The notes under the pieces: generated by a model
What the model was told of the DNA's origin: nothing
The model's input: only the letters and a program-made list of their open reading frames with translations
Database searches by the model: none
In this document: positions 4,556 to 23,034 of the stretch, in pieces
Position numbering within the stretch: position 1 is the stretch's first letter
How the letters are laid out: every line of letters starts with the position of its first letter
Virus record (IMG/VR): IMGVR_UViG_3300031951_001221
Location: 1-23,457 of that record
DNA: 23,457 nucleotides
DNA from: a virus
Strand: one strand, 5' to 3'
Made by a program: the position numbers and the translations under genes

Positions 4556-5410
4556 TTACCCCGAAACCGTGAGAGTGTCAGTGACGGTGAGCGTATCACC
4601 GTTGCCGACAGTTGCGTCTTGGTTCAACACCGTCTCGAAGATCATCGGGTCGGCTCCAGCAGCACTGAGTGCTGTGAAGAGACCCATGCGGTGAATGGCT
4701 GTCAACGTGCCCGTAATCGAGAACGCTTTTTGCAGCGTGAACGTCGCAGCACCAAAGGTATGGGCATACGTCGCCAACGCACGAGCAGCACCGTTGTTGG
4801 TGATTTCGCTCGTCAGCACAGTGTTCGATGCAGAAGCTGCCGACGAGTTTGTCGTCAACGCCATGAATCGAGCCGAAGCTGGTCCACCTGCTCCGATAAT
4901 GAAAGAATCACCTGTTGTTGGTGTAGTACCAGTCGTGTCATCAGCCTCCCACCACTTATCAATCGTGATGACGTTTGTGGTATTGCTGATGATGTTGCCA
5001 TACACCATCGGGTCGGTCGATGTATTTGGCGAAGCATAGACGCGAAGTCCAGCCAAACCAAGTTGTGGCGTTGCAAGATTGCTTGCAGTCCAGACCGAAC
5101 CAGTACCAGTGATGCTCGTTGCAGAGACACCAGTGGAGATGTTTGAGGCAACAGTGTTACCAGCAGGAATAAACCCGCCGATTGCACCGCACAACCAGTC
5201 ACGACCAATGTTTGTCAGCAAATTGTAGCTGACACCAAGGTCTTCGTAGGAACCATCCGCTCGGGTGATTCCTACATGGATTGCGTTCGGTCCCATTCGG
5301 ACCTTACTGATGGCCGTTTGGGAACCCGATTTTTCACGCTGACGGAACATTGTAATCAATGCTCCATCGTTGTAGTGAACGATTCTATTCAGAATGTTCT
5401 TCAAGAACAT
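4556..5410 (-). CDS. Minor structural protein (tail or head decoration type)
   Basis: A 284-aa product. I chose the ATG at 5410 because TAGGAGAAACC lies directly before it; the upstream ATG at 5464 lies inside the terminase gene and has no such site. The middle is low in charge and rich in Thr, Ser, Gly and Ala. The C-terminal part (GLFTALSA, FETVLNQDATVGNGDTLTVT) has the beta-strand style of phage virion proteins annotated as structural or tail-fibre-like. It starts 9 bp after the terminase gene. The exact virion role cannot be read from sequence. Confidence 0.65.
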   Translation of the reverse strand: MFLKNILNRIVHYNDGALITMFRQREKSGSQTAISKVRMGPNAIHVGITRADGSYEDLGVSYNLLTNIGRDWLCGAIGGFIPAGNTVASNISTGVSATSITGTGSVWTASNLATPQLGLAGLRVYASPNTSTDPMVYGNIISNTTNVITIDKWWEADDTTGTTPTTGDSFIIGAGGPASARFMALTTNSSAASASNTVLTSEITNNGAARALATYAHTFGAATFTLQKAFSITGTLTAIHRMGLFTALSAAGADPMIFETVLNQDATVGNGDTLTVTDTLTVSG

Positions 5411-12174: not shown

Positions 12175-12300
12175 CTATTCGCTTTCTGGCGGACCAAACC
12201 GCCGTAAGATAACCGCGTTGAACCGTTCCCACAATTTCGCGCCCGCGTTCGCTGGCATACGTTGCCACAATTTCCAAACCGTTGCGTTTCGCTTGCTCAT
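12175..12300 (-). CDS. Small hypothetical protein (41 aa)
   Basis: A 41-aa open frame with ATG at 12300 preceded by CACGGGGAAACGC, the same ribosome-site context seen before the other two minus-strand genes of this island. A full promoter lies at 12338-12366. The product is Trp/Arg-rich (MSKRNATVWKLWQRM...), basic, with no recognised domain. An overlapping frame (12119-12334, TTG start) is possible, but lacks this site. Confidence 0.4.
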   Translation of the reverse strand: MSKRNATVWKLWQRMPANAGAKLWERFNAVILRRFGPPESE

Positions 12301-12337
12301 TGCGTTTCCCCGTGGCCGTTGTTCTTCCCGACAAGGA

Positions 12338-12366
12338 AAGATAGGGCGCGTTTCGCCCCTTGTCAA
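12338..12366 (-). promoter_or_regulatory. Island promoter 3 with GGGCG palindrome
   Basis: On the minus strand, TTGACA (12361-12366), a 17-bp spacer and TATCTT (12338-12343). The spacer contains GGGCGAAACGCGCCC, an inverted repeat likely to be an operator. The start point near 12331 gives a leader of about 30 nt before the ATG at 12300. Confidence 0.65.
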
Positions 12367-12368
12367 AT

Positions 12369-12445
12369 GATAGAGACAGAAAACGGGGAAATAATTTCCA
12401 GAATTATTTCCGCCCGTGGCCGTGGCCCGTTATCGGGCCACGTTC
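12369..12445. repeat. Duplicated promoter-upstream segment, copy 1
   Basis: About 60 bp starting at 12357 is repeated at 12613 almost unchanged. It holds the AGAGACAG box, then GGAAATAATTTCC and the start of the CCGTGG repeat. The end of this copy forms the hairpin CGTGGCCCG-TTAT-CGGGCCACG, whose loop holds the stop codon of the 12558-12430 gene and which may terminate it. Confidence 0.7.
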
Positions 12446-12558
12446 AACGCCACGTTTAACCGTTCCATTTGAGCGAAAGAACGCTTGACAACGGAAGCGT
12501 TGCAAACGCTGGCGACGACGACGACGACGAACGCAAGAGACAGAAAGTAAGTTTTCAT
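12430..12558 (-). CDS. Small membrane or exported peptide (42 aa)
   Basis: A 42-aa open frame with ATG at 12558 after CACGGGGAAACAAA and an upstream promoter (12595-12623). The N-terminus MKTYFLSLAFVVVVVASVC is a strong hydrophobic helix or signal peptide. The tail (VVKRSFAQMERLNVALNVAR) is amphipathic and basic. The five valines come from a (GTC)n trinucleotide run. Its early codons contain the CTGTCTCTTGC word found in the nearby promoter modules, so the gene may have arisen from repeat DNA. Function unknown; a holin-like or toxin-like membrane peptide is conceivable. Confidence 0.5.
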   Translation of the reverse strand: MKTYFLSLAFVVVVVASVCNASVVKRSFAQMERLNVALNVAR

Positions 12559-12594
12559 TTTGTTTCCCCGTGGCCCGTTGTTCTTCCCCGTTGA

Positions 12595-12623
12595 ACTATG
12601 GGGCGCGTTTCGCCCCTTGTCAA
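12595..12623 (-). promoter_or_regulatory. Island promoter 2 with GGGCG palindrome
   Basis: On the minus strand, TTGACA (12618-12623), 17 bp, CATAGT (12595-12600). The spacer again carries GGGCGAAACGCGCCC. The leader before ATG 12558 is about 30 nt. The sequence upstream of -35 is a copy of that of promoter 3. Confidence 0.6.
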
Positions 12624-12670
12624 ATGATAGAGACAGAAAACGGGGAAATAATTTCCAGAATTATTTCCGC

Positions 12671-12814
12671 CCGTGGCCCGTGGCCCGTGGCCCGTGGCCC
12701 GTGGCCGTGGCCGTGGCCCGTGGCCGTGGCCCGTGGCCGTGGCCCGTGGCCCGTGGCCCGTGGCCGTGGCCGTGGCCCGTGGCCGTGGCCCGTGGCCGTG
12801 GCCCGTGGCCCGTG
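12671..12814. repeat. CCGTGG array of 6- and 7-bp units
   Basis: A pure array of CGTGGC (6) and CGTGGCC (7) units. Unit lengths run 7, then 7-7-7-6-6-7-6-7-6 twice, then 7: a 59-bp higher-order block present in two copies. Frames through it encode only low-complexity GHGPRAT or ARGPWPV chains, so I do not call a gene. It lies between the sigma-like gene and promoter 2. Confidence 0.9.
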
Positions 12815-12825
12815 CGCAAGGGGAA

Positions 12826-12904
12826 ACGGGCCACGGTTAGCGTTCCCGTGGCCCGTTCCCGTGGCCGATGAACGGGCCACGGTTAGCGTTCCCGTGGCCC
12901 GTGG
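12826..12904 (-). terminator. Two tandem hairpins after the sigma-like gene
   Basis: AACGGGCCACGG, loop TTAGCGTTC, CCGTGGCCCGTT occurs at 12826-12858 and again (slightly shorter 3' arm) at 12871-12903. Each is a near-perfect 11-12 bp stem, just downstream of the gene stop at 12908. The loop word TTAGCGTT matches the last bases of the gene, so these look like duplications of the gene end. No T-run follows, so a factor-dependent or processing role is possible. Confidence 0.5.
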
Positions 12905-12907
12905 CGT

Positions 12908-14002
12908 TTAGCGTTGTTCCGCCCGTTCCATCCGTTCCGCCCGTTCCCGCAAACGTCCTAAGCGTTTGCACAATTCGCCCGCGCTAATTCCCAGCGCGTC
13001 AGCTAGTTCGCGCTGGTTTGATGCGCCATGTTCCCGCATAGCTTCCGTAAGCGCGTCTAGTTCGGCATCATAGAAACGGTTAGCGTATCCGCGTTCCTTG
13101 TCTTCCCGCGCTTGCATCCTCATTTTGAGGATGTCTAACCGTTTCGCTTCCGCCCATTTTCTACGCTGGAAAGCGTTCCGCGCGTCGCGGACCGCGTTGC
13201 AAGTGTCGAATAGCTTGTTTCCCGTGGCGTATTTTTTCGCCCCGTCTTCCCGCGTTCCCGTGGCCCATAGAATGAACGCTTCTTGAATGATGTCTTCAAT
13301 GTCACTGGCGACGAAGAACGCGGTTTGATGTTTGCTTGACGATGTTTTCCGCGCCTTCAATGTCGCGGGCGCATCCTCTTTCCCCGTGGCCGATGAACGC
13401 GGAGAAAAGATAAGACGTTTGGTGAGATAACGCAACGCGATGGTACGGGAAAAACTATCGTCTTCCCTTTCCCCGTGGCAAAACAACGCTTCGCACGTTG
13501 CTTGCCCGCGCGGTTTTTTGCTCACTTTCGCCCCGTTGCTCTTGCGCATCATCTTTCCGGTTTTTTCGTTCCGTTTCAAAATGATGTCATTCGCGATGTC
13601 GTCGGCGCGTTTCACTTTCGCCCCGTCAAGGAACGGATGCGCCTTTTCATGGGCGATACGTTCCTTGCGTTCCGCGTTCGTCAATGTCGGTTCAACGCGC
13701 CCCGTTCCTTCCCGCGTATCCGCATGAACGCGGGCCACGGGCGGAGCGATAATAACCGTTTTATCGCAATGAAGCGAAACGCGGTTAGTATGGGCGATAA
13801 CGTCGATACGCGGAAAGATAACTTGCGTTATTTCCTTCCCCGTTGCTTCCGTTTCGCCCGTGGCCGTGGCCGTGGCGTTTAACCGTTCCATCGCGCCCGC
13901 GTCGTATCCTACGCTGGCGATGAATGCGGCGCGTTGTTCGCGGGCCAATTGGCGTTCCGCGTTTTCCCGTTGTTCCCGTTCCGTTTGGCGTTGTTCGTTC
14001 AT
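12908..14002 (-). CDS. Sigma-factor-like protein
   Basis: A 364-aa protein; ATG 14002 follows AAGGGGAAACGCC. Residues 1-27 are a charged helix. Residues 229-248 (FFVASDIEDIIQEAFILWA) resemble sigma70/ECF region 2 (the DxxDxxQExFxxxW pattern), followed by the helical NAFQRRKWAEAKRLD. Residues 322-350 (REHGASNQRELADALGISAGELCKRL) form a helix-turn-helix like region 4. The N-terminal 220 residues are not recognised. The role would be to direct RNA polymerase to phage promoters. Its DNA is rich in the word GCCACGGG, always read as Ala-Thr-Gly. The gene has its own promoter (14060-14088). The sigma call is by motif only. Confidence 0.6.
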   Translation of the reverse strand: MNEQRQTEREQRENAERQLAREQRAAFIASVGYDAGAMERLNATATATGETEATGKEITQVIFPRIDVIAHTNRVSLHCDKTVIIAPPVARVHADTREGTGRVEPTLTNAERKERIAHEKAHPFLDGAKVKRADDIANDIILKRNEKTGKMMRKSNGAKVSKKPRGQATCEALFCHGEREDDSFSRTIALRYLTKRLIFSPRSSATGKEDAPATLKARKTSSSKHQTAFFVASDIEDIIQEAFILWATGTREDGAKKYATGNKLFDTCNAVRDARNAFQRRKWAEAKRLDILKMRMQAREDKERGYANRFYDAELDALTEAMREHGASNQRELADALGISAGELCKRLGRLRERAERMERAEQR

Positions 14003-14059
14003 GGCGTTTCCCCTTGCGTCGTTTCGCTCCGCGTTTTGCGTTGCGTTCCCGACACAAGA

Positions 14060-14088
14060 AAGATAGGGCGCGTTTCGCCCATTGTCCA
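14060..14088 (-). promoter_or_regulatory. Island promoter 1 with GGGCG palindrome
   Basis: On the minus strand, TGGACA (14083-14088), 17 bp, TATCTT (14060-14065). The spacer again holds GGGCGAAACGCGCCC (14066-14080). It lies about 50 nt upstream of the sigma-like ATG. With promoters 2 and 3 it forms a family of three. Confidence 0.65.
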
Positions 14089-14128
14089 CTAGCAAGAGAC
14101 AGAAAAGGCGAAAAAAATTTCCAAGATT

Positions 14129-14159
14129 CCATAACTCATTGCGGCGCAATGAGTTATGG
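14129..14159. repeat. Perfect 14-bp palindrome
   Basis: CCATAACTCATTGC and GCAATGAGTTATGG flank a 3-nt loop. It separates the leftward promoter of the sigma-like gene from the rightward modules. It could be a cruciform, an operator or a terminator for convergent transcripts. Confidence 0.8.
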
Positions 14160-14196
14160 CAATTTTTATTTTCCTGGAAATTATTCGCCCCGTTTC

Positions 14197-14265
14197 TGTC
14201 TCTTGCTTGTGTTCTCAGTCTTTTCCGCGAACGCGGGCCAGCTGGGAACGCAAGCAAGAGACAGA
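14197..14265. repeat. Long imperfect palindrome ending in CTGTCTCTTG
   Basis: CTGTCTCTTGCTTGTG and its inverted copy (CAAGCAAGAGACAG) close a 69-bp palindrome with an inner GTTCTCAG/CTGGGAAC stem. The ends resemble the Tn5 inside end over about 10 bases, but there is no transposase and the flanks are themselves inverted copies. Confidence 0.6.
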
Positions 14266-14322
14266 AACGGGAAAAATAATTTCTAGGAAATTATTCGCCC
14301 CGTTTCTGTCTCTTGCTTGTGA
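14249..14322. repeat. 74-bp palindrome of facing CTGTCTCT modules
   Basis: CAAGCAAGAGACAGAAACGGG on the left is mirrored by CCCGTTTCTGTCTCTTGCTTG on the right, with an inner AAATAATTTC/GAAATTATT stem. It can form a hairpin of more than 25 bp, and shares its left arm with the preceding palindrome. Confidence 0.7.
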
Positions 14323-14434: not shown

Positions 14435-14479
14435 AGGTATGGGCGTACACTGTACACTGGTATAGGTAGGGGTCGTTTT

Positions 14480-14515
14480 CCTCTAAGTATAAATGGGACC
14501 GGATCAAAAGCGTTT
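14480..14515 (+). promoter_or_regulatory. 36-bp TATAAAT repeat, copy 1
   Basis: CCTCTAAGTATAAAT followed by GGGACCGGATCAAAAGCGTTT is repeated with one change at 15380-15415. The AGTATAAAT core resembles a -10 or a T4-late-type promoter. It precedes the large structured RNA. Just upstream is GTACACTGTACACT, which shares TACACT with the intercistronic elements. Confidence 0.45.
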
Positions 14516-14666: not shown

Positions 14667-14754
14667 TATGGAAATTATTCAAGGCGATTCTGTCTCTTCA
14701 TTGCAGAGAAGAACGGTTTGGCTACGGGATTTCTCCCTTAAATGGGCGTGCGGG

Positions 14755-15150
14755 AAAGGCATACCTTAGACTTCAGAGCAAGTGGACCGATGGCGACTAC
14801 ATATGAACTACGCCATTCAACCCCACAGATGTTCACCTAAGCGAAGGCGGCACGTTGAATCCTTCCGCGTCAACCCCGGTTAGTAAGCTATAGTGGCTGA
14901 GTCTATCTATAGCGAGGACATGGGGCCAGTGGATAGCCTAGGCTGAATCAAGCCGAAAGACCAGCATACACCGCATGGGTATGCTAGAAAGCCTTGCCAG
15001 TAATGCCAAGCATATAGGATTACTTGGGGCTTTCCGTAATAGTCGGATATGAAATGGCTGTTTGTTTCATAACTGCCGATTATTGCGAGTGTACGGCGCT
15101 TCCGCCTAGTCCGCTTGACTTAGTGGCTTAGGGTATTCGCCCTCGCAATT
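14755..15150 (+). ncRNA. Large structured RNA candidate
   Basis: About 400 nt with no gene but many stable stems in series: ATGGCG/CGCCAT (14790-14816), GCTATAG/CTATAGC (14887-14913), AGCATAC/GTATGCT (14963-14985), AAAGCC/GGCTTT enclosing GTAAT/ATTAC (14988-15033), a two-part 16-bp stem (15038-15084) and a long-range ATTGCGAG/CTCGCAAT (15082-15149). Size and phage context recall GOLLD- or ROOL-type RNAs, but I cannot match either. A TGCGGGAAA word hints at a group I intron core, but no flanking exons exist. The strand is uncertain because one arm carries an inverted copy of the intercistronic element. Confidence 0.5.
15088..15117 (-). repeat. Inverted copy of the intercistronic element
   Basis: Read on the minus strand these 30 nt match 16869-16898 at 29 positions, including CAAGCGGACTAGGCGGAA and GCCGTACACT. 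It is the only copy found outside the rightward gene array and points the other way. No Shine-Dalgarno site and gene follow it. Confidence 0.75.
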
Positions 15151-15374: not shown

Positions 15375-15379
15375 CCTTC

Positions 15380-15415
15380 CCTCTAAGTATAAATGAGACC
15401 GGATCAAAAGCGTTT
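15380..15415 (+). promoter_or_regulatory. 36-bp TATAAAT repeat, copy 2
   Basis: Identical to 14480-14515 except GAGACC for GGGACC. It starts a long leader to the gene at 15636. Two copies, each in front of a long structured leader, suggest a phage-specific promoter. Confidence 0.45.
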
Positions 15416-15635
15416 TCCGATTGGAAAGTGTCATTGGTCAGTGGTCAGTTGTAAACTAATAATCGAATCGGTTGATGCAAAGACCGATTGGATTCGGCGC
15501 GTAAAAATTCTTGTTCGATTCCGCTAGGGCGATTACCCCTAGCCACTAAGTTTTCCTGTCAGTTGAACGATTCCTTATGCTCTAGCATGTCGCTAGAGTA
15601 TTCCGTTTCTTCCATCATGAAAGGCAAGTGTTACT
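15416..15635 (+). promoter_or_regulatory. Structured 5' leader of the ParB-like gene
   Basis: No gene. There are three clean hairpins: AATCGGT/ACCGATT (about 15465-15490), GCTAGGG/CCCTAGC (about 15522-15543) and CTCTAGC/GCTAGAG (about 15579-15599). A heptamer repeat (TTGGTCAGTGGTCAG) lies near 15432. The leader may control translation of the downstream gene. Confidence 0.5.
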
Positions 15636-16835: not shown

Positions 16836-16856
16836 GTCCCAGCCCATAAGGGCAAC

Positions 16857-16902
16857 CCGCCCACTATTCAAGCGGACTAGGCGGAATCGCCGTACACTAA
16901 CC
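16857..16902 (+). repeat. Intercistronic element 1 (divergent)
   Basis: CCGCC/GGCGG forms the main stem and CGG-AATCG-CCG the second hairpin, then TACACTAACC and AAGGAG before the next ATG. The upstream pseudoknot arm is not clear in this copy. An inverted near-copy lies at 15088-15117. Confidence 0.7.
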
Positions 16903-16914
16903 AAGGAGAAAGAG

Positions 16915-17262
16915 ATGAGTCTGTTGCATAGTCTCCATAACCCCGAATTGATTAAAGCACCTGGAATGGTGTATGAGATTTGGGAAGATGGGGAGATTAC
17001 CCTGACAAAGTCGGGTGATCTCTACGGAATGCGTGGACTGCACTGTATCGTACCGGGCAAGCAAGGCGTGAATGTCCCTCTCCCTGTCAAGCGAGGGAAT
17101 CATTCCAGCATGGCTATCGCCGATACTGATATTGCGGTTGCTCGCAAATTGATTGTCGGCGACAATGACCCGTATGAGACTTGCTTGCCGGGTAAGAAAT
17201 ATGAAACCCAGCAAGAACTCTACGATGAAATTACTCGCCGGAACACGATTGCGATGAGCTAA
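16915..17262 (+). CDS. Hypothetical protein (115 aa)
   Basis: ATG 16915 follows CAAGGAGAAAGAG. The 115-aa product starts with a short helix (MSLLHSLHNPELIKAPG), then a beta-rich part (MVYEIWEDGEITLTKSGDLYGM) and a helical C-terminus (YETQQELYDEITRRN). Single cysteines lie at about 44 and 90. No family recognised. It is framed on both sides by intercistronic elements, so it is a single-gene cassette. Confidence 0.75.
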   Translation: MSLLHSLHNPELIKAPGMVYEIWEDGEITLTKSGDLYGMRGLHCIVPGKQGVNVPLPVKRGNHSSMAIADTDIAVARKLIVGDNDPYETCLPGKKYETQQELYDEITRRNTIAMS

Positions 17263-17315
17263 CCAGGGGCTTCCCAGTGGTCAAGCTGGGAAGACGGAAG
17301 TGCCGTACACTAACC
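17262..17315 (+). repeat. Intercistronic pseudoknot element 2
   Basis: ACCA (17262-17265) pairs with loop TGGT (17278-17281). The main stem is CTTCCCAG/CTGGGAAG and the second hairpin ACGG-AAGTG-CCGT, then ACACTAACC and AGAGGA before the ATG. It begins at the stop codon of the preceding gene. Confidence 0.85.
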
Positions 17316-17328
17316 AGAGGAATCAGAA

Positions 17329-17511
17329 ATGGACATGAAGATACTTGCCACAGAAATCGAAAGATTGCGAGACAAGTTTGTCTTTGCCGAAGATGAGCCA
17401 GTGAACGAATCGCTAATGTCACAAGGCTATTGGCTGGCGTCACTGGCGTCATTGCAACAAGCAATTGCCCAAGCAAGAATCGGAGCTTGTCTCCAAGAAG
17501 AAGGAAAATAA
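17329..17511 (+). CDS. Small helical protein (60 aa)
   Basis: ATG 17329 with AGAGGA upstream; a second ATG at 17335 is also possible. The 60-aa product is almost entirely helical and amphipathic (ILATEIERLRDKF, YWLASLASLQQAIAQARIG), suggesting a dimeric or coiled-coil partner. No family recognised. It is framed by elements 2 and 3. Confidence 0.65.
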   Translation: MDMKILATEIERLRDKFVFAEDEPVNESLMSQGYWLASLASLQQAIAQARIGACLQEEGK

Positions 17512-17545
17512 CCAGGGGCTTCCCAGTGGTATAACTGGGAAGACG
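17511..17545 (+). repeat. Intercistronic pseudoknot element 3
   Basis: ACCA starts inside the stop codon and pairs with loop TGGT. The main stem is CTTCCCAG/CTGGGAAG and the second hairpin ACGG-AAGCG-CCGT. Unlike most copies it is followed by about 135 nt of non-coding sequence, not by a ribosome site. Confidence 0.85.
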
Positions 17546-17680
17546 GAAGCGCCGTGCAGTTAGGAATTGATGCGAAGCGGACGCGATGAAATAACCATCG
17601 TGAGAGACCGCCAGACCTAACGATTCCGAGTCCACTCTTCCTAGGAAGTTGAAAGGTGGAACCAACAGGGTAGGAATCAG
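17546..17680 (+). ncRNA. Non-coding spacer RNA A
   Basis: No open frame with a start site. GTTAGG/CCTAAC closes a domain with an inner CGATG/CATCG hairpin, followed by the 12-bp palindrome CTTCCTAGGAAG. It is bounded by element 3 on the left and element 4 on the right. It shares the GGAATCA and CCCGGTG words with spacer B (17928-18093). Confidence 0.4.
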
Positions 17681-17714
17681 CCCGGTGCTTCCGGGTCCGC
17701 CGTACACTCAAACC
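17681..17714 (+). repeat. Intercistronic element 4 (variant)
   Basis: CCCGG-TGCTT-CCGGG replaces the usual main stem, and CGG-GTCCG-CCG keeps the second hairpin with its 5-nt loop. TACACT is kept and AAGGAG precedes the ATG at 17731. Same variant class as element 6. Confidence 0.65.
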
Positions 17715-17730
17715 TTAAGGAGATTGCAGC

Positions 17731-17877
17731 ATGTTCGTCATCGTGTTGAGTTTCGAGGAAGGCGATTTGGTGATTCCGATCAACGAAGAGAAGGCGGCAA
17801 AACGCCTCTACAGCATCGTGCGATTGCTGTTCCCGTCCGTGCCCGTGTCGGTCTACCAGATTGTCAAGGTCGCGTAA
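17731..17877 (+). CDS. Small hypothetical protein (48 aa)
   Basis: ATG 17731 follows TTAAGGAGATTGCAGC. The 48-aa product alternates beta and helix (MFVIVLSFEEGDLVIPINEEKAAKRL...), ending VYQIVKVA. Its MF(V/I)(I/V)V start and overall length resemble the 54-aa product at 19399, so the two may be distant copies. No family recognised. Confidence 0.65.
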   Translation: MFVIVLSFEEGDLVIPINEEKAAKRLYSIVRLLFPSVPVSVYQIVKVA

Positions 17878-17881
17878 GCAA

Positions 17882-17927
17882 ACCAGGGGCTACCCAGTGG
17901 TCATAACTGGGTAGACGGAAGCGCCGT
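17882..17927 (+). repeat. Intercistronic pseudoknot element 5
   Basis: ACCA pairs with loop TGGT. The main stem is CTACCCAG/CTGGGTAG, a compensatory change (A-T for T-A) relative to element 2. The second hairpin is ACGG-AAGCG-CCGT. It is followed by spacer B and not by a ribosome site. Confidence 0.85.
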
Positions 17928-18093
17928 ATGCCGATAAAATCAAGACTGTCTTCACTGTCACAACTGGTTGGGGATACGTTGTACTAGCACTTGATTTGCA
18001 CTATACAATGCGCCGTCCCACCTACTAGGCAGCCAGAGAAGACGTGTTCGCGAGGCTATCGCGCCATGGGAATCAACAGCGACCAAAGTCTGA
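17928..18093 (+). ncRNA. Non-coding spacer RNA B
   Basis: No credible gene; the 19-codon frame at 17928 has no ribosome site. A possible inner promoter is TTGTAC (17979-17984), 17 bp, TATACA (18002-18007). It ends in sequence related to the end of spacer A. It may be a small RNA made or processed from the operon. Confidence 0.35.
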
Positions 18094-18173
18094 ACCCGGT
18101 GATTCCGGCAGAGGACACGGCTGGCACATGGTTAAGCATATCGGCCCTTCCGGGTCCGCCGTACACTCCAACC
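18094..18173 (+). repeat. Intercistronic element 6 (variant with insert)
   Basis: ACCCGG (18094-18099) pairs with CCGGGT (18150-18155) across a longer insert, then the CGG-GTCCG-CCG hairpin and TACACT. AAGAGAGG precedes the next ATG. Related to element 4. Confidence 0.6.
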
Positions 18174-18187
18174 AAGAGAGGAATCAA

Positions 18188-18478
18188 ATGAACAGTCCCA
18201 TCGGAAAGGCATTCGAGATCGAATTGCCTAGCTCGCGTCAAGTTCTTCGTGAAAAGTTTGCAGCACTTGCTGCGGCTGATGCGGCAGCGAACGATGGTCT
18301 CTACCTCAACGCACCCTACAAGGTTCGCGTCGGCGATGAGACCTACAAAGGTTCGATTCGCGTCAACTCCAAGCCGGACGAAGACGGCACGCGAAACGTC
18401 AAGAACGATGTCTACACGCTGGTTATCGAACGCCCCGTGCGGCATATCGCCAACGTGGACTTGAAGAATCCGTACTAA
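18188..18478 (+). CDS. Hypothetical protein (96 aa)
   Basis: ATG 18188 follows GAGAGGAATCAA; upstream in-frame codons lie in the spacer. The 96-aa product has a helical N-terminus rich in Ala (about 20-42: LREKFAALAAADAAAND) and a beta-rich C-terminus (YKVRVGDETYKGSIRVN, VYTLVIERPVRHIANVDL), like a small single-strand- or protein-binding barrel. No family recognised. It is a single-gene cassette between elements 6 and 7. Confidence 0.7.
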   Translation: MNSPIGKAFEIELPSSRQVLREKFAALAAADAAANDGLYLNAPYKVRVGDETYKGSIRVNSKPDEDGTRNVKNDVYTLVIERPVRHIANVDLKNPY

Positions 18479-18480
18479 CA

Positions 18481-18532
18481 CCGGGCACGATCCAGCGGCA
18501 AACTGGGTCGTCGGAATCGCCGTACACTAACC
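18481..18532 (+). repeat. Intercistronic pseudoknot element 7
   Basis: CCG (18481-18483) pairs with loop CGG (18496-18498). The main stem is CGATCCAG/CTGGGTCG (one G-T wobble). The second hairpin is TCGG-AATCG-CCGT, then ACACTAACC and TTGGAG. Confidence 0.85.
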
Positions 18533-18543
18533 TTGGAGATACC

Positions 18544-19017
18544 ATGTATGAGAGACGTGTAGCGACACTGTCAATAGGTTTGGGCGGCGTCGGCGGTAAT
18601 ACCATCGACGGCGGGAGTATCACATACTATGATACTCGATTGCGAGCCTACTACGGTGAGCTTGTTGAAGGTGGATTCGTAATCGACAAAAGCAAAGTTC
18701 TGGCTGAAAAGCCGGGGCTAGTGATTGCGTCTCCACTGTGCAAGGGTAGTATGAAACCTGGCACAACCGATGCACTCGGCGATGTTAGCGATAACTTTGT
18801 CGCTAACGCAATTGCCAACGACCGTAACAATCCGGCCAGCGTCTTAGCGAAGCTGGCTATTGCAGGTTTCGGTGGCTTCGATTATGTTGCACCGGACTTG
18901 TATGCTGCGTGGTGGCTGGACAAAGGTGCCCGAGTTGGCACTCGAATCGGAGACACCATCCACTGGTCTGACGGAATCATCGAGCAAATACCTAGCTTTG
19001 AAGCAAGGTACAAGTAG
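18544..19017 (+). CDS. Hypothetical protein (157 aa)
   Basis: ATG 18544 follows TTGGAGATACC. The 157-aa product begins with a Gly-rich beta segment (VATLSIGLGGVGGNTIDGGSITYYD), then mixed regions. At about 95-120 it has ASVLAKLAIAGFGGFDYVAPDLYAAWWLDKG, a hydrophobic and aromatic stretch. No family recognised. The glycine-rich start is not a Walker or Rossmann motif I can defend. Confidence 0.7.
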   Translation: MYERRVATLSIGLGGVGGNTIDGGSITYYDTRLRAYYGELVEGGFVIDKSKVLAEKPGLVIASPLCKGSMKPGTTDALGDVSDNFVANAIANDRNNPASVLAKLAIAGFGGFDYVAPDLYAAWWLDKGARVGTRIGDTIHWSDGIIEQIPSFEARYK

Positions 19018-19076
19018 ACGTTCCCCAGCGTATGATTCGGCCCACGTTACGGACCGAACGGAAGCGCCGTAACCTC
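19018..19076 (+). repeat. Intercistronic pseudoknot element 8
   Basis: The main stem is TTCGG-x-CC/GG-x-CCGAA and the second hairpin ACGG-AAGCG-CCGT. An ACGT before the stem can pair with ACGT in its loop, keeping the pseudoknot with new bases. TACACT is replaced by AACCTCAAC; ATGGAG precedes the gene. Confidence 0.7.
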
Positions 19077-19098
19077 AACTTTTCATGGAGAATCAGTC

Positions 19099-19296
19099 AT
19101 GGCTCAGCCACACCAAGTGAACATCGACGATATTTCGACTTTCAAGGTCGAACACGTTTTGGCAAGTTCCTCAGCCGATTCCAAGAAATTGGTCGTCCGA
19201 GTTACCGCCAAGGTCACGGATTTCGTCGTCACGAAAGACGGACTCGTCCAAGTGTTCACGAATCTCGCGGCAGCGGTCAAACGCTACAACGGGTAG
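19099..19296 (+). CDS. Small hypothetical protein (65 aa)
   Basis: ATG 19099 follows CATGGAGAATCAGTC. The 65-aa product has beta strands (KLVVRVTAKVTDFVVTKDGLVQVF) and a C-terminal helix (NLAAAVKRYNG). No family recognised. It is a single-gene cassette between elements 8 and 9. Confidence 0.65.
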   Translation: MAQPHQVNIDDISTFKVEHVLASSSADSKKLVVRVTAKVTDFVVTKDGLVQVFTNLAAAVKRYNG

Positions 19297-19312
19297 AATC
19301 AACTCTGGGTTC

Positions 19313-19385
19313 CAGCCTGCGGCCCGGATGTTTGCGTCTGTTAGGGGACTTCGTCCTCAAGTAGGCTCGGAAGCGCCGTCCCTTT
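19313..19385 (+). repeat. Intercistronic element 9 (divergent)
   Basis: AGCCT/AGGCT forms a wider outer stem around GGAC-TTC-GTCC, then CGG-AAGCG-CCG and TCTGGAGGAA before the ATG. The second hairpin is the best-kept part; the pseudoknot arm is not visible. Confidence 0.6.
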
Positions 19386-19398
19386 TCTGGAGGAATCC

Positions 19399-19563
19399 AT
19401 GTTCATCGTCGTAAGAGTGGAAGACGGATTAACAACCGTCGTCCCGAAAAAGACATGGACGGATGTTATCCCGCTTCTCAAAGTGAAAGATTCCATCCGT
19501 CGCTTGTCCGTCAAAGAAGACGGCAAGTTCGTTTTGCTTATCAGGAGGAAACTATGTGGCTGA
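19399..19563 (+). CDS. Small hypothetical protein (54 aa)
   Basis: ATG 19399 follows TGGAGGAATCC. The 54-aa product is beta-rich with a short helix (MFIVVRVEDGLTTVVPKK, VIPLLKVKDSIRRL). Its last codons contain AGGAGG, the ribosome site of the next gene, which it overlaps by 10 bp. It resembles the 48-aa product at 17731 at its start. Confidence 0.65.
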   Translation: MFIVVRVEDGLTTVVPKKTWTDVIPLLKVKDSIRRLSVKEDGKFVLLIRRKLCG

Positions 19564-19622
19564 TCCTGTTAATCATGATCTTCGTCATCGGTCCAATGGC
19601 AATGAGCCGTAGACGCAGATAA
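19554..19622 (+). CDS. Membrane micropeptide (22 aa)
   Basis: ATG 19554 is 5 nt after a perfect AGGAGG located inside the upstream gene. The 22-aa product is one hydrophobic helix (MWLILLIMIFVIGPMAM) followed by SRRRR, the normal inside-positive pattern of a single-pass membrane peptide. The strong ribosome site and its place before an element support a real gene. Confidence 0.6.
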   Translation: MWLILLIMIFVIGPMAMSRRRR

Positions 19623-19671
19623 CCGTAGGTCCAGCGGTCAAACTGGACCAACGGAATCGCCGTACACTAAC
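19622..19671 (+). repeat. Intercistronic pseudoknot element 10
   Basis: ACCG (19622-19625) pairs with loop CGGT (19635-19638). The main stem GGTCCAG/CTGGACC is perfect but differs from other copies on both arms. The second hairpin is ACGG-AATCG-CCGT, then ACACTAAC and AAGGAG. Confidence 0.85.
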
Positions 19672-19683
19672 AAGGAGAAAGCC

Positions 19684-20112
19684 ATGCAACTGTTCGATCA
19701 CTACCATATTGACGATGACATTGCCGAAGCTGTCTGGAAAAGACACGGCAATGAGATTGCCAAGCTGGAACAGAAAGCCAAAGAACAGACGGACCCGAAG
19801 GAACAGGTCCGATTGGAAATGGAAGCCGCGAGAATGTCCATCTGGTCAAAGCTGGACGTTATCATGGCGGACATGCAAGTGCTTCTGTCTTTCTGGACCA
19901 AAAAGCGATTGGTCTTCGTCGATGGCGGCGAAGGCGAATTTGAAGAGGATGGAGTCTCAGCGTTCAAAGAACGATTCCAACGAGTTGTTCACTTCATGGA
20001 GGAAATTGATGAGGAATCGAAGTTCGAGGCTGCAAAGCGTCTCGTGCAATGCGGCACGGATGAGGAAGCCCGAGACGCGATGGAACAACTCAAGCTAGAT
20101 TGTGAATTGTAA
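19684..20112 (+). CDS. Hypothetical helical protein (142 aa)
   Basis: ATG 19684 follows AAGGAGAAAGCC. The 142-aa product is acidic and mostly helical, with a charged helix at 22-48 (EIAKLEQKAKEQTDPKEQVRLE), a hydrophobic helix at 55-75 (KLDVIMADMQVLLSFW), and acidic helices to the end. Many small phage inhibitor proteins look like this, but no family is recognised. Confidence 0.7.
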   Translation: MQLFDHYHIDDDIAEAVWKRHGNEIAKLEQKAKEQTDPKEQVRLEMEAARMSIWSKLDVIMADMQVLLSFWTKKRLVFVDGGEGEFEEDGVSAFKERFQRVVHFMEEIDEESKFEAAKRLVQCGTDEEARDAMEQLKLDCEL

Positions 20113-20113
20113 A

Positions 20114-20163
20114 CCGGGGGCTACCCAGCGGAATCTGGGTAGACGGAAGTGCCGTACCCTTAA
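20114..20163 (+). repeat. Intercistronic pseudoknot element 11
   Basis: CCG pairs with loop CGG (20129-20131). The main stem is CTACCCAG/CTGGGTAG and the second hairpin ACGG-AAGTG-CCGT, then ACCCTTAAC and AGGAGAG. Confidence 0.85.
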
Positions 20164-20175
20164 CAGGAGAGAACC

Positions 20176-20442
20176 ATGCCGTTGAAGTTCAGATTAATCG
20201 AAGAAGTCAACGACTTGGGGTCTACTCTTACCACGGAGTATGAGGGCTTCACTCACCAGATTACGAAAGCGAACATCAAGGACTACATCTTTGTAATCGC
20301 CTGGTTAGACGGTGAGCAAGACTACTGGATTGTAGACGGTGAACTCGGCATTGCCGAACTAAGCCGCCACTACATGGACATGGTAGGAATCGTCCCCGAG
20401 TTCATGAGGATGCGTTATGAAGACGTACCAAGATGTCCGTGA
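20176..20442 (+). CDS. Hypothetical protein (88 aa)
   Basis: ATG 20176 follows AGGAGAGAACC. The 88-aa product is beta-rich (MPLKFRLIEEVNDLGSTLTTEYEG, DYIFVIAWLDGEQDYWIVDGELG) with aromatic strands. It overlaps the next gene by 26 bp without an element between, so the two form one two-gene cassette and may work together. No family recognised. Confidence 0.7.
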   Translation: MPLKFRLIEEVNDLGSTLTTEYEGFTHQITKANIKDYIFVIAWLDGEQDYWIVDGELGIAELSRHYMDMVGIVPEFMRMRYEDVPRCP

Positions 20443-20692
20443 TTTCCTCGAAAAGAGTCAAGATGAATTCTCTGTCAAATTCATCAAGCGGGGAACAAAT
20501 CAACTGCGTCACATGCGTTGCAAGAAGTTTGTCAAGGAAGCCTTGAAAGGTGGCGAGCAATCGTACAACGCCAAGGATTACTTGCTGGTCAACGTGTTTG
20601 ACTTGGATGCGAAGCACTACAAATGCTTCCCGCTCGATGGGTTGAAAGAGATTCTTGTTGACGGTGAGTGGCACGAAGTTGTGCCAAAGTGA
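20417..20692 (+). CDS. WYL_2-like small beta-barrel protein
   Basis: A 91-aa product whose ATG lies inside the upstream gene; a GAGG about 8 nt upstream (20406-20409) may serve as ribosome site. The pattern of FIKRGTNQLRHMRCKK, a spacer, YLLVNVFDLDAKHYKCFPLDGLKEI and a final EWHEV resembles small Sm/SH3-like barrel proteins of phages (WYL_2, DUF2693). Those are thought to bind nucleic acid or ligand. I judge this similarity by eye only. Confidence 0.5.
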   Translation: MKTYQDVRDFLEKSQDEFSVKFIKRGTNQLRHMRCKKFVKEALKGGEQSYNAKDYLLVNVFDLDAKHYKCFPLDGLKEILVDGEWHEVVPK

Positions 20693-20694
20693 AA

Positions 20695-20748
20695 ACCAGG
20701 GGCTACCCAGTGGTATAACTGGGTAGACGGAAGCGCCGTTACACTCAC
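20695..20748 (+). repeat. Intercistronic pseudoknot element 12
   Basis: ACCA pairs with loop TGGT. The main stem is CTACCCAG/CTGGGTAG and the second hairpin ACGG-AAGCG-CCGT, then TACACTCACC and AAGGAG. Confidence 0.85.
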
Positions 20749-20766
20749 CCAACAAGGAGAATCGAA

Positions 20767-21231
20767 ATGAAAGCAAAATTGGTAGGAATCAAGGATCAGT
20801 TGTTTGCCGCCTTGTACTTGGTTGCCCACCAAAAGGTCAACCATGTGGACTTGCAGAATATGTTCGGCAAAGAACGAGGCAAACAACTCTCGGACTTGAT
20901 TGAAATCGACCAACGGTTCTGGCATCTCGGGACTCGATTCGCGAGTCTCAAGAAGCTCGAAAGTCTCGACTACAAGAAGCTGGCGTCATTGGTCAAGCGA
21001 ATCGATGAAGTCTCGGACGACGAGATCATGAAGTTCTTTGATCTTCGTGAACCTGTGAACAAAGTAAGAATGATGCCTCGAAAAAGAATCGAAATGTTGA
21101 CGATGGGGTTCCCTGTGAACATCATCTCCGATTCGTTTCGGGCCATCGCCGAAGACAACATGGATCGCATCGACAAATACGTTAAACATGCCGACGCAAT
21201 CAATGCGGCGGTCAACGAGATCATGAAATAA
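20767..21231 (+). CDS. Hypothetical helical protein (154 aa)
   Basis: ATG 20767 follows AAGGAGAATCGAA. The 154-aa product is basic and helical throughout. Residues 10-45 (DQLFAALYLVAHQKVNHVDLQNMFGKERGKQL) might include a winged-helix-like unit, and the C-terminus is a helical bundle (about 110-150). No family recognised. It is a single-gene cassette. Confidence 0.7.
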   Translation: MKAKLVGIKDQLFAALYLVAHQKVNHVDLQNMFGKERGKQLSDLIEIDQRFWHLGTRFASLKKLESLDYKKLASLVKRIDEVSDDEIMKFFDLREPVNKVRMMPRKRIEMLTMGFPVNIISDSFRAIAEDNMDRIDKYVKHADAINAAVNEIMK

Positions 21232-21280
21232 CCGGGGGCTACCCAGCGTCAAACTGGGTAGACGGAAGCGCCGTTCTCTA
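21231..21280 (+). repeat. Intercistronic pseudoknot element 13
   Basis: CCG with loop CG (shortened pseudoknot arm). The main stem is CTACCCAG/CTGGGTAG and the second hairpin ACGG-AAGCG-CCGT. TACACT is degraded to TTCTCT; AAAGGAG follows. Confidence 0.8.
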
Positions 21281-21296
21281 ACAAAAGGAGTCCCTC

Positions 21297-21704
21297 ATGA
21301 TTGAAGTCCATGACCACGATGGCAAGAAAGTCGATGGGAAATCGCCCATCGTTGCCAGACTGGACACGGAGAAAGAATGCGTCGATTACATCAAGAAAGT
21401 TCATCGTGGCCAAAAGGTCACGTTGGATGCCCCACCTTTTGGTCCGGGCAAGTTGGTGTCGATTGACGGCAACTACCGCTACTTCGTCGGCTCGGATGAA
21501 AAGTTCAAGCCCGAACCGGATGCGGGAATCACTCTCCATGTGCCGTGCATCAAATGCCCGAAGATCACGCCAGTCGTGATGACGCAGGAGCAAGCGATTG
21601 CATATGGCAACCCAGAGCGTGGTGCAGTCGCGGCGATCTTCCCCAACCAAAGTGTCGAGACTCAACGATTGTTGAGTGTCGGCATCTGTCCGAAGTGTTG
21701 GTGA
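21297..21704 (+). CDS. Zinc-ribbon protein with a duplicated N-terminal domain
   Basis: ATG 21297 follows AAAGGAGTCCCTC. The 135-aa product has an N-terminal domain (1-70) that aligns with the whole 69-aa product at 22696: PIVARLDTEKECVDYI against PIVAELATVEECVALL, with a shared downstream FGPGKL/FSGGPEL region. The C-terminal part carries C-x2-C twice (PCIKCPK and ICPKCW), so probably one zinc site. Function unknown; likely a metal-dependent regulator. Confidence 0.7.
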   Translation: MIEVHDHDGKKVDGKSPIVARLDTEKECVDYIKKVHRGQKVTLDAPPFGPGKLVSIDGNYRYFVGSDEKFKPEPDAGITLHVPCIKCPKITPVVMTQEQAIAYGNPERGAVAAIFPNQSVETQRLLSVGICPKCW

Positions 21705-21708
21705 AGCT

Positions 21709-21957
21709 ATGCCAAAAACTGACAAGCAGATGATTCTGAATCCAGACCTGTGGCCACGATGGCCTTGGCTTCCGGTGAAGAAGTCGGCACAGACGTTACT
21801 CACTGGTCTTCTCTGTTGTTCGGAAGAACACCTGGAAGGCAAGATGATTATCTATCATGCCTACCTCTACAAGATGCCGGAGACAATGGAAGGAGTCCCA
21901 ACTACGGAGTACCCGAACGTCGATGCAATGCTTGCAGATGGATGGGTCATCGATTGA
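21709..21957 (+). CDS. Hypothetical protein (82 aa)
   Basis: ATG 21709 comes 4 bp after the upstream stop, with only a weak GGTGAAG site, so coupling is likely. The 82-aa product is Trp/Pro-rich at the start (LNPDLWPRWPWLPVKKSAQ) and ends in a beta-helix part (MIIYHAYLYKMPETMEG, VDAMLADGWVID). No family recognised. It shares a cassette with the zinc-ribbon gene. Confidence 0.6.
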   Translation: MPKTDKQMILNPDLWPRWPWLPVKKSAQTLLTGLLCCSEEHLEGKMIIYHAYLYKMPETMEGVPTTEYPNVDAMLADGWVID

Positions 21958-21962
21958 GAAAA

Positions 21963-22011
21963 CGGTTGCCGGTTCCCGACTGAACCGGACGGAATCGCCG
22001 TACACTCTAAC
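21963..22011 (+). repeat. Intercistronic pseudoknot element 14
   Basis: Upstream CGG (21963-21965) pairs with loop CCG (21976-21978): the reverse of the CCG/CGG pair elsewhere. The main stem CCGGTT/AACCGG is also new. The second hairpin is ACGG-AATCG-CCGT, then ACACTCTAACC and AAAGGAGG. Confidence 0.85.
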
Positions 22012-22024
22012 CAAAGGAGGACTG

Positions 22025-22363
22025 ATGATTACATCTGAATTCGAGTATTACTTGATTCAGGAGTTGAACAGTATGCCGGATCGTGAACTCGCTCAGAAGA
22101 TCGAGTTACATATCTGGTATCGCTGTGCAACTCCGCAACCAAAGATACTCGCGAAGTATCTTCAAGCCTTGAAGGAATCGGACGGACCAGAAGAGTTCGT
22201 CGAGAAGGCACAAAGATACCTCGACGCAAGCGGACTGGAGTTCGTTCTCGATGAAACTGGCAAATTCATGACTCGCACGCCGAACGTGAATCCGCCGGAT
22301 TACATCGAGATTTCCGTAGAAACCAGGCTCGAAGCTGAGAAGCAAGAGCCGCAAGTGGAGTGA
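22025..22363 (+). CDS. Hypothetical protein (112 aa)
   Basis: ATG 22025 follows AAAGGAGGACTG, one of the best ribosome sites here. The 112-aa product is helical in its first two thirds (EFEYYLIQELNSMPDRELAQKIELHIW) with a beta-rich end (YIEISVETRLEAEKQ). No family recognised. It is followed 3 bp later by a membrane micropeptide in the same cassette. Confidence 0.7.
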   Translation: MITSEFEYYLIQELNSMPDRELAQKIELHIWYRCATPQPKILAKYLQALKESDGPEEFVEKAQRYLDASGLEFVLDETGKFMTRTPNVNPPDYIEISVETRLEAEKQEPQVE

Positions 22364-22366
22364 CTG

Positions 22367-22453
22367 ATGGCTGGATTCATCATCCTGATCGTGTTAGGAA
22401 TCATCTATGCTTGGTTGACAAGCCCGGTTGATTTCTTTATCAACGATGACTAG
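22367..22453 (+). CDS. Membrane micropeptide (28 aa)
   Basis: ATG 22367 has GGAG 7 nt upstream, inside the end of the previous gene. The 28-aa product is a single hydrophobic helix (GFIILIVLGIIYAWL) with an acidic tail (FFINDD), a single-pass membrane peptide. Like the peptide at 19554 it is the last gene before an element. Confidence 0.6.
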   Translation: MAGFIILIVLGIIYAWLTSPVDFFINDD

Positions 22454-22460
22454 CAAAAAA

Positions 22461-22502
22461 CGGTTGCCGGTTCCCGCCTGAACCGGACGGAAGCGTCGTA
22501 CC
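22461..22502 (+). repeat. Intercistronic pseudoknot element 15
   Basis: CGG pairs with loop CCG. The main stem is CCGGTT/AACCGG. The second hairpin is ACGG-AAGCG-TCGT, where the changed base keeps a G-T pair. AGGAGAA precedes the ATG. Confidence 0.85.
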
Positions 22503-22518
22503 TTTACAGGAGAATCAA

Positions 22519-22686
22519 ATGAAACATGAGTATATCATCACTTGCATCAACAGCAAGGGTGAAACAGTTCTGACACAGCGAGGAATCGCGACTCAAAGCG
22601 ACATCGTTGCTGTGTACTTAACTTCGATGCAACGCACGGACACGGTTCGCGTGATCCTTGATGTTGCGATTACACCGTCAAACTAA
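22519..22686 (+). CDS. Small hypothetical protein (55 aa)
   Basis: ATG 22519 follows CAGGAGAATCAA. The 55-aa product has alternating beta and helix (MKHEYIITCINSKGETVLTQ, SDIVAVYLTSMQR, DTVRVILDVAI). No family recognised. It shares a cassette with the next gene, 9 bp away. Confidence 0.65.
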   Translation: MKHEYIITCINSKGETVLTQRGIATQSDIVAVYLTSMQRTDTVRVILDVAITPSN

Positions 22687-22695
22687 GGAGTCAAG

Positions 22696-22905
22696 ATGTT
22701 CACCATCTATGACATGCACGCTCCGTTGTTCAAAGGCGAAATGCCGATTGTAGCTGAACTGGCTACTGTTGAGGAATGCGTCGCCTTACTTGGAATGATT
22801 CACAAGTACGAAAGAATTGCAACACTCCCAACCTTTTCAGGTGGGCCAGAGTTGTACGCATTTGTACGTGGCAAAGCCATGTACCTGATTCAACCGCGAC
22901 CGTGA
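22696..22905 (+). CDS. Small protein, paralogue of the domain at 21297
   Basis: ATG 22696 follows AAGGAGTCAAG. The 69-aa product is homologous along its length to residues 1-70 of the protein at 21297 (PIVAELATVEECVALLGMIHK, SGGPELYAFVRGKAMYLI), but lacks the C-terminal zinc ribbon. This suggests duplication followed by fusion or loss. Function unknown. Confidence 0.65.
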   Translation: MFTIYDMHAPLFKGEMPIVAELATVEECVALLGMIHKYERIATLPTFSGGPELYAFVRGKAMYLIQPRP

Positions 22906-22986
22906 AGCTCTTGGCTATGGGTTGAACTATGTTCAAAGTGTATCTTCTGGATACGCAGCCTAGCTAATCGGCTCAAGGTTGTTACA

Positions 22987-23034
22987 CCGGGCACGATCCA
23001 GCGGTATATCTGGGTCGTCGGAAGCGCCTTACCT
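22987..23034 (+). repeat. Intercistronic pseudoknot element 16
   Basis: CCG pairs with loop CGG. The main stem is CGATCCAG/CTGGGTCG as in element 7. The second hairpin is weaker here (TCGG-AAGCG-CCTT). TATGGAGGAA precedes the ATG at 23051. Confidence 0.8.

Follow-up and report, generated by a model that had tools for sequence, protein, structure and literature searches.

Which role is played by a sequence that recurs between the small genes of a viral operon, each time behind one gene and in front of the next? The question was raised by a 23,457-base fragment of the virus record IMGVR_UViG_3300031951_001221 (the window, i.e., the whole stretch of DNA that was analyzed). Head genes in leftward orientation (major head protein, portal, TerL) are found in its left part, and the right part is taken up by a rightward operon (16.8-23.05 kb) of about 20 small genes, almost none of which has a Pfam match. 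The original prediction, made from the letters alone, had described about 16 copies of a two-part RNA element in this operon. The analysis revealed that each copy is an H-type pseudoknot that is directly followed by a hairpin of the form CGG-AANYG-CCG. We give about even chances to the view that this is an intercistronic control element acting at the RNA level, probably read by a trans-acting factor and secondarily used as a recombination joint. Each copy probably controls the messenger RNA of its gene and supplies a ready-made joint for gene swapping.

Copies of the element and their position

The rightward operon contains 14 full copies, all in sense orientation, and all 14 are located between a stop codon and a Shine-Dalgarno (SD) site, the place that had been predicted. 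Together with two extra 3'-half copies (CGGGTCCGCCGTACACT) at 17692 and 18151 they account for the predicted number. The core CGGAA-N-Y-G-C/Y-C-G/N-T is found on the plus strand at 16882, 17295, 17544, 17916, 18512, 19059, 19368, 19652, 20144, 20728, 21263, 21990, 22488 and 23019, and a fifteenth core is present in antisense orientation at 15093-15104. When up to two mismatches were allowed, the core pattern was found 34 times in the whole window, compared with a mean of 14.8 and a maximum of 24 after shuffling.

The spacing to the downstream gene is narrow. The end of the hairpin lies 20-29 nt from the start codon in the 12 short copies, and the distance to the SD site is fixed at 8-16 nt. 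The SD regions themselves vary among the copies, and the conserved block sits upstream of them. A constant TACACTAACC, which had been listed as part of the layout, is exact in 3 places only; elsewhere a loose pyrimidine-rich stretch is found.

Based on the reading of the open reading frames (ORFs), 14 of the 20 operon genes are preceded by the element, fewer than the "almost every gene" of the original prediction. It is missing in front of the first operon gene and, where genes are tightly packed in pairs (five cases), in front of the second gene (19554, 20417, 21709, 22368, 22696). Because these second genes have no element of their own, each cassette, as the unit, comprises either one gene or two. 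The element is present in multiple copies (14, all sense), in a single orientation, and upstream of the starts of non-structural genes.

A sole close relative was found, an IMG/VR contig of 111.8 kb with a TerL 97% identical to that of the window (G001). Its operon contains 15 copies at places matching those of the window.

Pseudoknot fold and covariation

The "short arm" that had been regarded as a separate part is in reality the 5' strand of the pseudoknot helix S1, and it pairs with the 5' part of the loop of the stem-loop, S2. The features of an H-type pseudoknot were all found, i.e., two interleaved helices, a short L1, an L2 of virtually no length, an L3 that runs across S1, and a location upstream of the SD site. 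In 24 of 25 copies the geometry comprises an S1 of 3-5 bp, an L1 of 2-4 nt, an S2 of 7-9 bp, an L2 of 0 nt, and an L3 of 2-6 nt, which is often A-rich. The gap between pseudoknot and hairpin is 0-2 nt. S1 occurs as ACCA/UGGU, ACCG/CGGU, UCG/CGA, ACG/CGU, CGG/CCG and AGCGU/ACGUU, and S2 in many sequence types. In at least 10 of the 14 copies S1 starts at the stop codon or at most about 9 nt after it, and in copy 2 (17262) the last base of the stop codon is the first base of S1.

Several tests were applied to the pairing. With strict geometry, an S1 of at least 3 bp directly after the 5' arm of S2 was present in 24 of 25 copies (the divergent copies were left out), compared with a mean of 3.7 and a maximum of 10 in 1000 shuffles. 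When the upstream arms were dealt among the distinct copies, the observed score was reached in 0 of 2000 trials. In an alignment of 16 distinct copies, which was assembled from stem segments with constant linkers between them to keep the register and which tests pairing only, 93.2% of the S1 and S2 cells were paired, and both sides were changed in 46 cells. The covariation score of S1 plus S2 was 0.816, versus 0.190 +/- 0.036 after shuffling (reached in 0 of 500) and at most 0.18 when the alignment was slid. For S1 alone it was 0.494 versus 0.125 (again 0 of 500), and the inner three pairs were standard in 47 of 48 cells. Double changes were also seen at orthologous junctions of the two phages. 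S1 is CCG/CGG at 20144 of the window and ACCA/UGGU at 4951 of G001, a compensatory exchange, and S2 differs on both sides between 20728 of the window and 5531 of G001, where the orthologue carries CUUCCCAG/CUGGGAAG. On the sense strand S2 contains four G-U cells and one A-C cell, which weakly favors folding of RNA over folding of DNA.

The second hairpin behaved differently from the helices of the pseudoknot, as its core is almost invariant across 29 copies, which points to recognition and not to shape. The prediction of a structured element at the RNA level was supported by the covariation, and the composition of the element had to be revised from two simple hairpins to an H-type pseudoknot plus a hairpin. 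The layout is also less constant than claimed. Two copies (17544, 17916) are long composites, in which the 5' half is separated from the 3' half by an RNA of about 135 or 225 nt, and two others, 16882 (with its antisense relative 15093) and 19368, belong to divergent types. The composite inserts are closed by CGGAAG...CTTCCG and are present in both phages. Composite 1 (17512-17712) folds much better than shuffled sequences (z = -4.1), composite 2 slightly better (z = -1.4). The individual features are as follows.

16852..16893, plus strand: copy 1, divergent type G, with a CCGC/GCGG stem, an ACTAG spacer and the hairpin GCGGAATCGCCGT; upstream of gene 16915; 26 bits with the covariance model
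17262..17306, plus strand: copy 2, pseudoknot at 17262-17293 and hairpin at 17294-17306; S1 ACCA/UGGU, L1 GGGG, S2 CUUCCCAG/CUGGGAAG
17511..17555, plus strand: copy 3, pseudoknot and hairpin core, 5' end of the long composite 1
17556..17711, plus strand: RNA insert of composite 1, closed by CGGAAGCGCC/GGUGCUUCCG, with the half copy CGGGTCCGCCGTACACT at its end
17882..17927, plus strand: copy 4, pseudoknot and hairpin core, 5' end of composite 2
17928..18170, plus strand: RNA insert of composite 2, closed by CGGAAG...CUUCCG, with the half copy 18151 at its end
18480..18523, plus strand: copy 5, S1 CCG/CGG, L1 GGC, S2 ACGAUCCAG/CUGGGUCGU, hairpin loop AAUCG
19027..19070, plus strand: copy 6, type E, S1 AGCGU/ACGUU, L1 AUGA, S2 UUCGGCCC/GGACCGAA with one C.A mismatch; the entire intergenic region is 100% identical in G001
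19306..19379, plus strand: copy 7, type F, possible S1 UGGG/CCCG (by eye), S2 AGCCUG/UAGGCU, two extra hairpins in between; the right part is recombinant with another cassette
19622..19663, plus strand: copy 8, S1 ACCG/CGGU, L1 UA, S2 GGUCCAG/CUGGACC
20113..20155, plus strand: copy 9, S1 CCG/CGG
20695..20739, plus strand: copy 10, S1 ACCA/UGGU, S2 CUACCCAG/CUGGGUAG
21231..21274, plus strand: copy 11, S2 as in the A types, S1 of just 2 bp (C.U mismatch); in the G001 orthologue the third S1 pair is restored (ACG/CGU)
21963..22001, plus strand: copy 12, type D, S1 CGG/CCG (strands swapped relative to the other types), L1 UUG, S2 CCGGUUC/GAACCGG
22461..22499, plus strand: copy 13, type D, same as copy 12, hairpin with one G-U pair
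22986..23030, plus strand: copy 14, S1 ACCG/CGGU, L1 GGC, S2 ACGAUCCAG/CUGGGUCGU; upstream of the AAA-type gene 23051
15084..15123, minus strand: antisense copy similar to type G, within a non-coding region; covariance model E = 7e-4

The antisense core lies in a non-coding region (14715-15150, plus strand) that is predicted to fold well (z = -2.8), and the 3' end of this region is complementary to copy 1 (16864-16898) and to the leader 15523-15551. A stretch that looks like a three-way-junction RNA was observed behind the last gene pair and ahead of the last element (22906-22985 and L051:7740-7840); it is conserved in both phages, with changed hairpin sequences. Two other pairings, a single closing helix around both hairpins and a pairing of the upstream arm with the 5' arm of the second hairpin, were dropped, as neither is kept in all types.

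Cassette exchange, proposed action and rival explanations

The comparison of the window with G001 showed that the eleven short intergenic elements are 90-100% identical and the two composites 84 and 90%, versus 68-88% for the genes. Five differences of one or two genes were found, all of them between copies. Gene 17329 is present in the window only and represents an exact insertion of one unit, flanked by a 45-nt repeat. The window lacks the G001 gene 3763-4131, and 18544, 20767 and 22519 plus 22696 are replaced or strongly diverged. At the hybrid junction 19297-19399 (copy 19368) the left part corresponds to the element at 3731 of G001, the right part to the element at 4162 together with its gene, and the switch point is in the core. 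Gain and loss of cassettes at the copies is real, and the predicted cassette-like layout was confirmed.

These five differences, the junction that combines the left half of 3731 with the right half of 4162, and the exact insertion of gene 17329 would also be expected if the element were primarily a recombination joint, i.e., a short homology, perhaps with folding of the DNA, that is kept for the exchange of small genes. Recombination requires sequence identity, yet the helices differ between junctions while the pairing stays. Also, the orientation and the fixed distance to the SD site are left unexplained, and no recombinase was found among the proteins scanned. A primary role in recombination is regarded as unlikely. 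Any repeat would allow such an exchange of cassettes, and the exchange is treated as a consequence or a secondary benefit.

A similarly low probability is assigned to a promoter or a DNA operator in front of each cassette, comparable to a possible role of the ESAS repeats of Cluster K phages, with the core binding a sigma factor or a repressor in double-stranded DNA. A DNA site would be expected to lie directly in front of the start and to have such a near-invariant core. In some copies TACACT is similar to a -10 box, and if transcription started 7 nt downstream, the SD site would be part of a short leader. In addition, a weak match to sigma-70 region 4 was found among the scanned proteins of G001, and the ESAS of Adephagia have putative SigA promoters (PMC11373665). 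However, a -35 hexamer at the right spacing was not found, and the A at position 2 of the -10 box is missing in several copies. The scan for sigma-70 promoters yielded 11 promoter-like matches versus 6.0 expected by chance, and just one of them overlaps an element (17912). Nor would a DNA site be expected to show compensatory changes in interleaved helices. As predicted, the copies are also not plain terminators, since no plus-strand match to an intrinsic terminator (GC stem plus T run) was found at any copy.

From the observed repeat, its position and orientation, the covarying pseudoknot, the conservation and the cassette differences at the copies we infer that the element acts as RNA, through a trans-acting factor, and affects translation, stability or processing. 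Action at the RNA level is the strongest of these steps, because the shape is kept by compensatory change, the recognition loop is constant, and the place between stop codon and SD site is fixed. The transcript would fold into the H-type pseudoknot near the upstream stop codon and the hairpin with the AANYG loop, followed by about 10 unpaired nt and the ribosome site of the next gene. The core of the hairpin would most likely be recognized by an RNA-binding protein or a nuclease of the phage or the host, and the pseudoknot may serve as a structural block that is independent of sequence. As S1 lies at or near the stop codon, the presence of a terminating ribosome and the folding of the pseudoknot should be mutually exclusive. 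The proposed outcome is that each cistron or coupled pair would be separately translated, stabilized or processed from a common transcript, comparable to the action of the gene 32 pseudoknot on one gene of T4. With the same element at every junction, recombination between copies would insert, delete or swap cassettes and leave expression intact; an element of expression can in this way also act as the site of exchange for small phage genes.

Several points weigh against this control element. Double changes are absent from the second hairpin, and its pairing rests on conservation. In the two composites its pentaloop is dispensable, because the hairpin loop there carries an RNA domain. The copies are related to each other, which the shuffles ignore, and represent only about six independent helix types from two phages. 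Single short copies, folded without the pseudoknot, gave modest z values from +0.4 to -3.4. An insulation of the SD site from the upstream sequence is weakly supported, as the effect was small (opening cost 5.96 versus 6.11 and 6.20 kcal/mol, spread 1.30 versus 1.70 and 1.56). This small effect is the reason why a trans-acting factor is favored, and no candidate for such a factor was identified.

More tentatively, the copies might form a multi-copy RNA operator of the phage, a pseudoknot-hairpin class of variable sequence and constant shape through which one trans-acting factor controls the whole set post-transcriptionally. We consider this possible rather than likely. If it were true, any gene landing between two copies would join the regulon, and the element would define a new family of RNAs and be the first pseudoknot system of a virus that regulates multiple genes.

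The put sites of phage HK022 consist of two adjacent stem-loops; a genome contains just a few of them, and they are not known to be linked to start codons. An analogous element in the nascent RNA, which acts on the polymerase and keeps it processive through the long operon, would agree with two stacked structures, 0-2 nt apart, that are repeated along one operon. It would predict neither the fixed distance to the SD site nor the presence at cassette starts only, and put sites differ in number and place, so that this explanation is quite improbable.

It is very improbable that processed pseudoknots are decoy antitoxins that bind a type III toxin nuclease of the host (ToxN-like), as pseudo-ToxI in phage PhiTE: ToxI is likewise a small pseudoknot repeat (36 nt, also in phage), comparable in unit size and repeat number, and a phage can evade ToxIN by expanding such repeats (PMC3475682), but ToxI units are tandem, gene-free, sequence-specific antitoxins that keep their sequence contacts, whereas here S1 and S2 vary freely, the copies are tied to SD sites and separated by ORFs, and no toxN-like Pfam match was found among the operon proteins.

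Distribution, known systems and further RNAs

The search of the 4227 families of Rfam 15 against the window yielded no match to the element at the gathering score; two tRNAs were the only matches, and nothing relevant appeared up to E = 5. The Rfam scans of the relatives tested did not reveal a family for the element either. Exact and gapped DNA patterns in viral contigs retrieved G001 plus single chance matches without the stem, a scan of bacterial genome contigs gave two chance matches only, and the element was not found by blastn in 50,697 phage records. The covariance-model search that had been proposed for phage genomes was productive within the window, where the model found the divergent copy at 16852 and the antisense copy at 15084, and yielded no element in five remoter relatives. 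Protein searches with the first and last genes of the operon matched only G001. At the sensitivity of these searches the element is known from two phages only. A syntenic 107 kb contig (G002, TerL 80%) apparently lacks the rightward operon, or it stops before it. In more distant relatives the identity of TerL is 43-53%.

The predicted absence from described RNA families was upheld for Rfam, yet the element is not unique in kind. Other conserved repeats in front of non-structural gene starts are known from phages, i.e., SAS/ESAS (PMC3203893) and motifs of Microbacterium phages (PMC7302621). These actinobacteriophage start-associated repeats and the T4 gene 32 pseudoknot are the closest precedents, and no defining test puts the element into either group. 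The repeats of Cluster K mycobacteriophages and of Microbacterium phage clusters EC, EF and EG resemble it in number (about 8-19 copies per genome) and in their mostly single orientation (PMC3203893, PMC7302621), and they also lie just upstream of the starts of mainly non-structural genes, often of different families, and are clade-specific. In contrast, SAS is a 13-bp sequence that overlaps the SD or ribosome-binding site, whereas the SD region of the element is not conserved. ESAS is a 17-bp imperfect inverted repeat with departures that, according to its authors, do not support RNA pairing, unlike the covarying helices described here.

The autoregulatory pseudoknot of T4/T2 gene 32 is likewise of the H-type and located in a phage gene leader, about 67 nt upstream of the start versus 25-70 nt for the short copies (PMC3014915). 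It is a single copy, autogenous and followed by A+U-rich unstructured RNA, whereas the element has 14 copies in front of different genes and is followed by a conserved hairpin. The 17-bp dyad repeats of Cluster O mycobacteriophages are also often intergenic, and recombinational insertions and deletions of genes were inferred there; they differ in being simple palindromic DNA sites that are unlinked to starts and located inside genes in about one third of the cases (PMC4351075).

Promoter early stem-loop (PeSL) cassettes of T4-type phages combine an early promoter with a stem-loop. They are similar repeated stem-loop elements between small, exchangeable early genes, and they carry an early (sigma-70-like) promoter per copy. 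The predicted difference from PeSL was confirmed, as the copies of the element have no such promoter pattern. With a pseudoknot class that is present about 14 times in one operon and covaries, the role of phage start-associated repeats becomes directly testable by means of the shape, the recognition loop, the neighboring genes and natural compensatory mutants.

Upstream of the operon, a poorly coding region of the window (12300-14300) contains dense tandem repeats of CCGTGGCC and several inverted repeats around TTTCTGTCTCTTGC, and the G001 contig breaks near its counterpart. A 39-nt repeat with CTCTAAGTATAAATGRGACCGGATCAAAAGCG at 14477-14515 and 15377-15415 is a possible phage-specific promoter-like motif.

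Lastly, the leftward operons of G001 and G002 contain an array of about ten RNAs that is unrelated to the pseudoknot element. About 12 copies were found in G001 (L053:1000-5000, minus strand, i.e., 41.0-45.0 kb) and 9 in G002 (L058:4860-6330, minus strand), between genes and tRNAs. The layout is P1, GGUGGCG, P2, UUACUUC, P2', AAUCCCC, and several of the RNAs have a tRNA-like domain with a capped acceptor stem. Single members match the Rfam family YrlA (Y RNA-like) below its gathering score of 69 (40.9 bits, E 3e-8 at L053:1267-1360), and the array possibly encodes phage Y RNAs. A TROVE (Ro60-family) gene adjoins the array in both genomes (G001:C1:38652-40103 and G002:C1:~23377-24798, both minus strand; PF05731 over the cut-off), and the genome of G001 also contains a phage RNA ligase (PF09414, E 1e-18, L053:14690-15883, minus strand).

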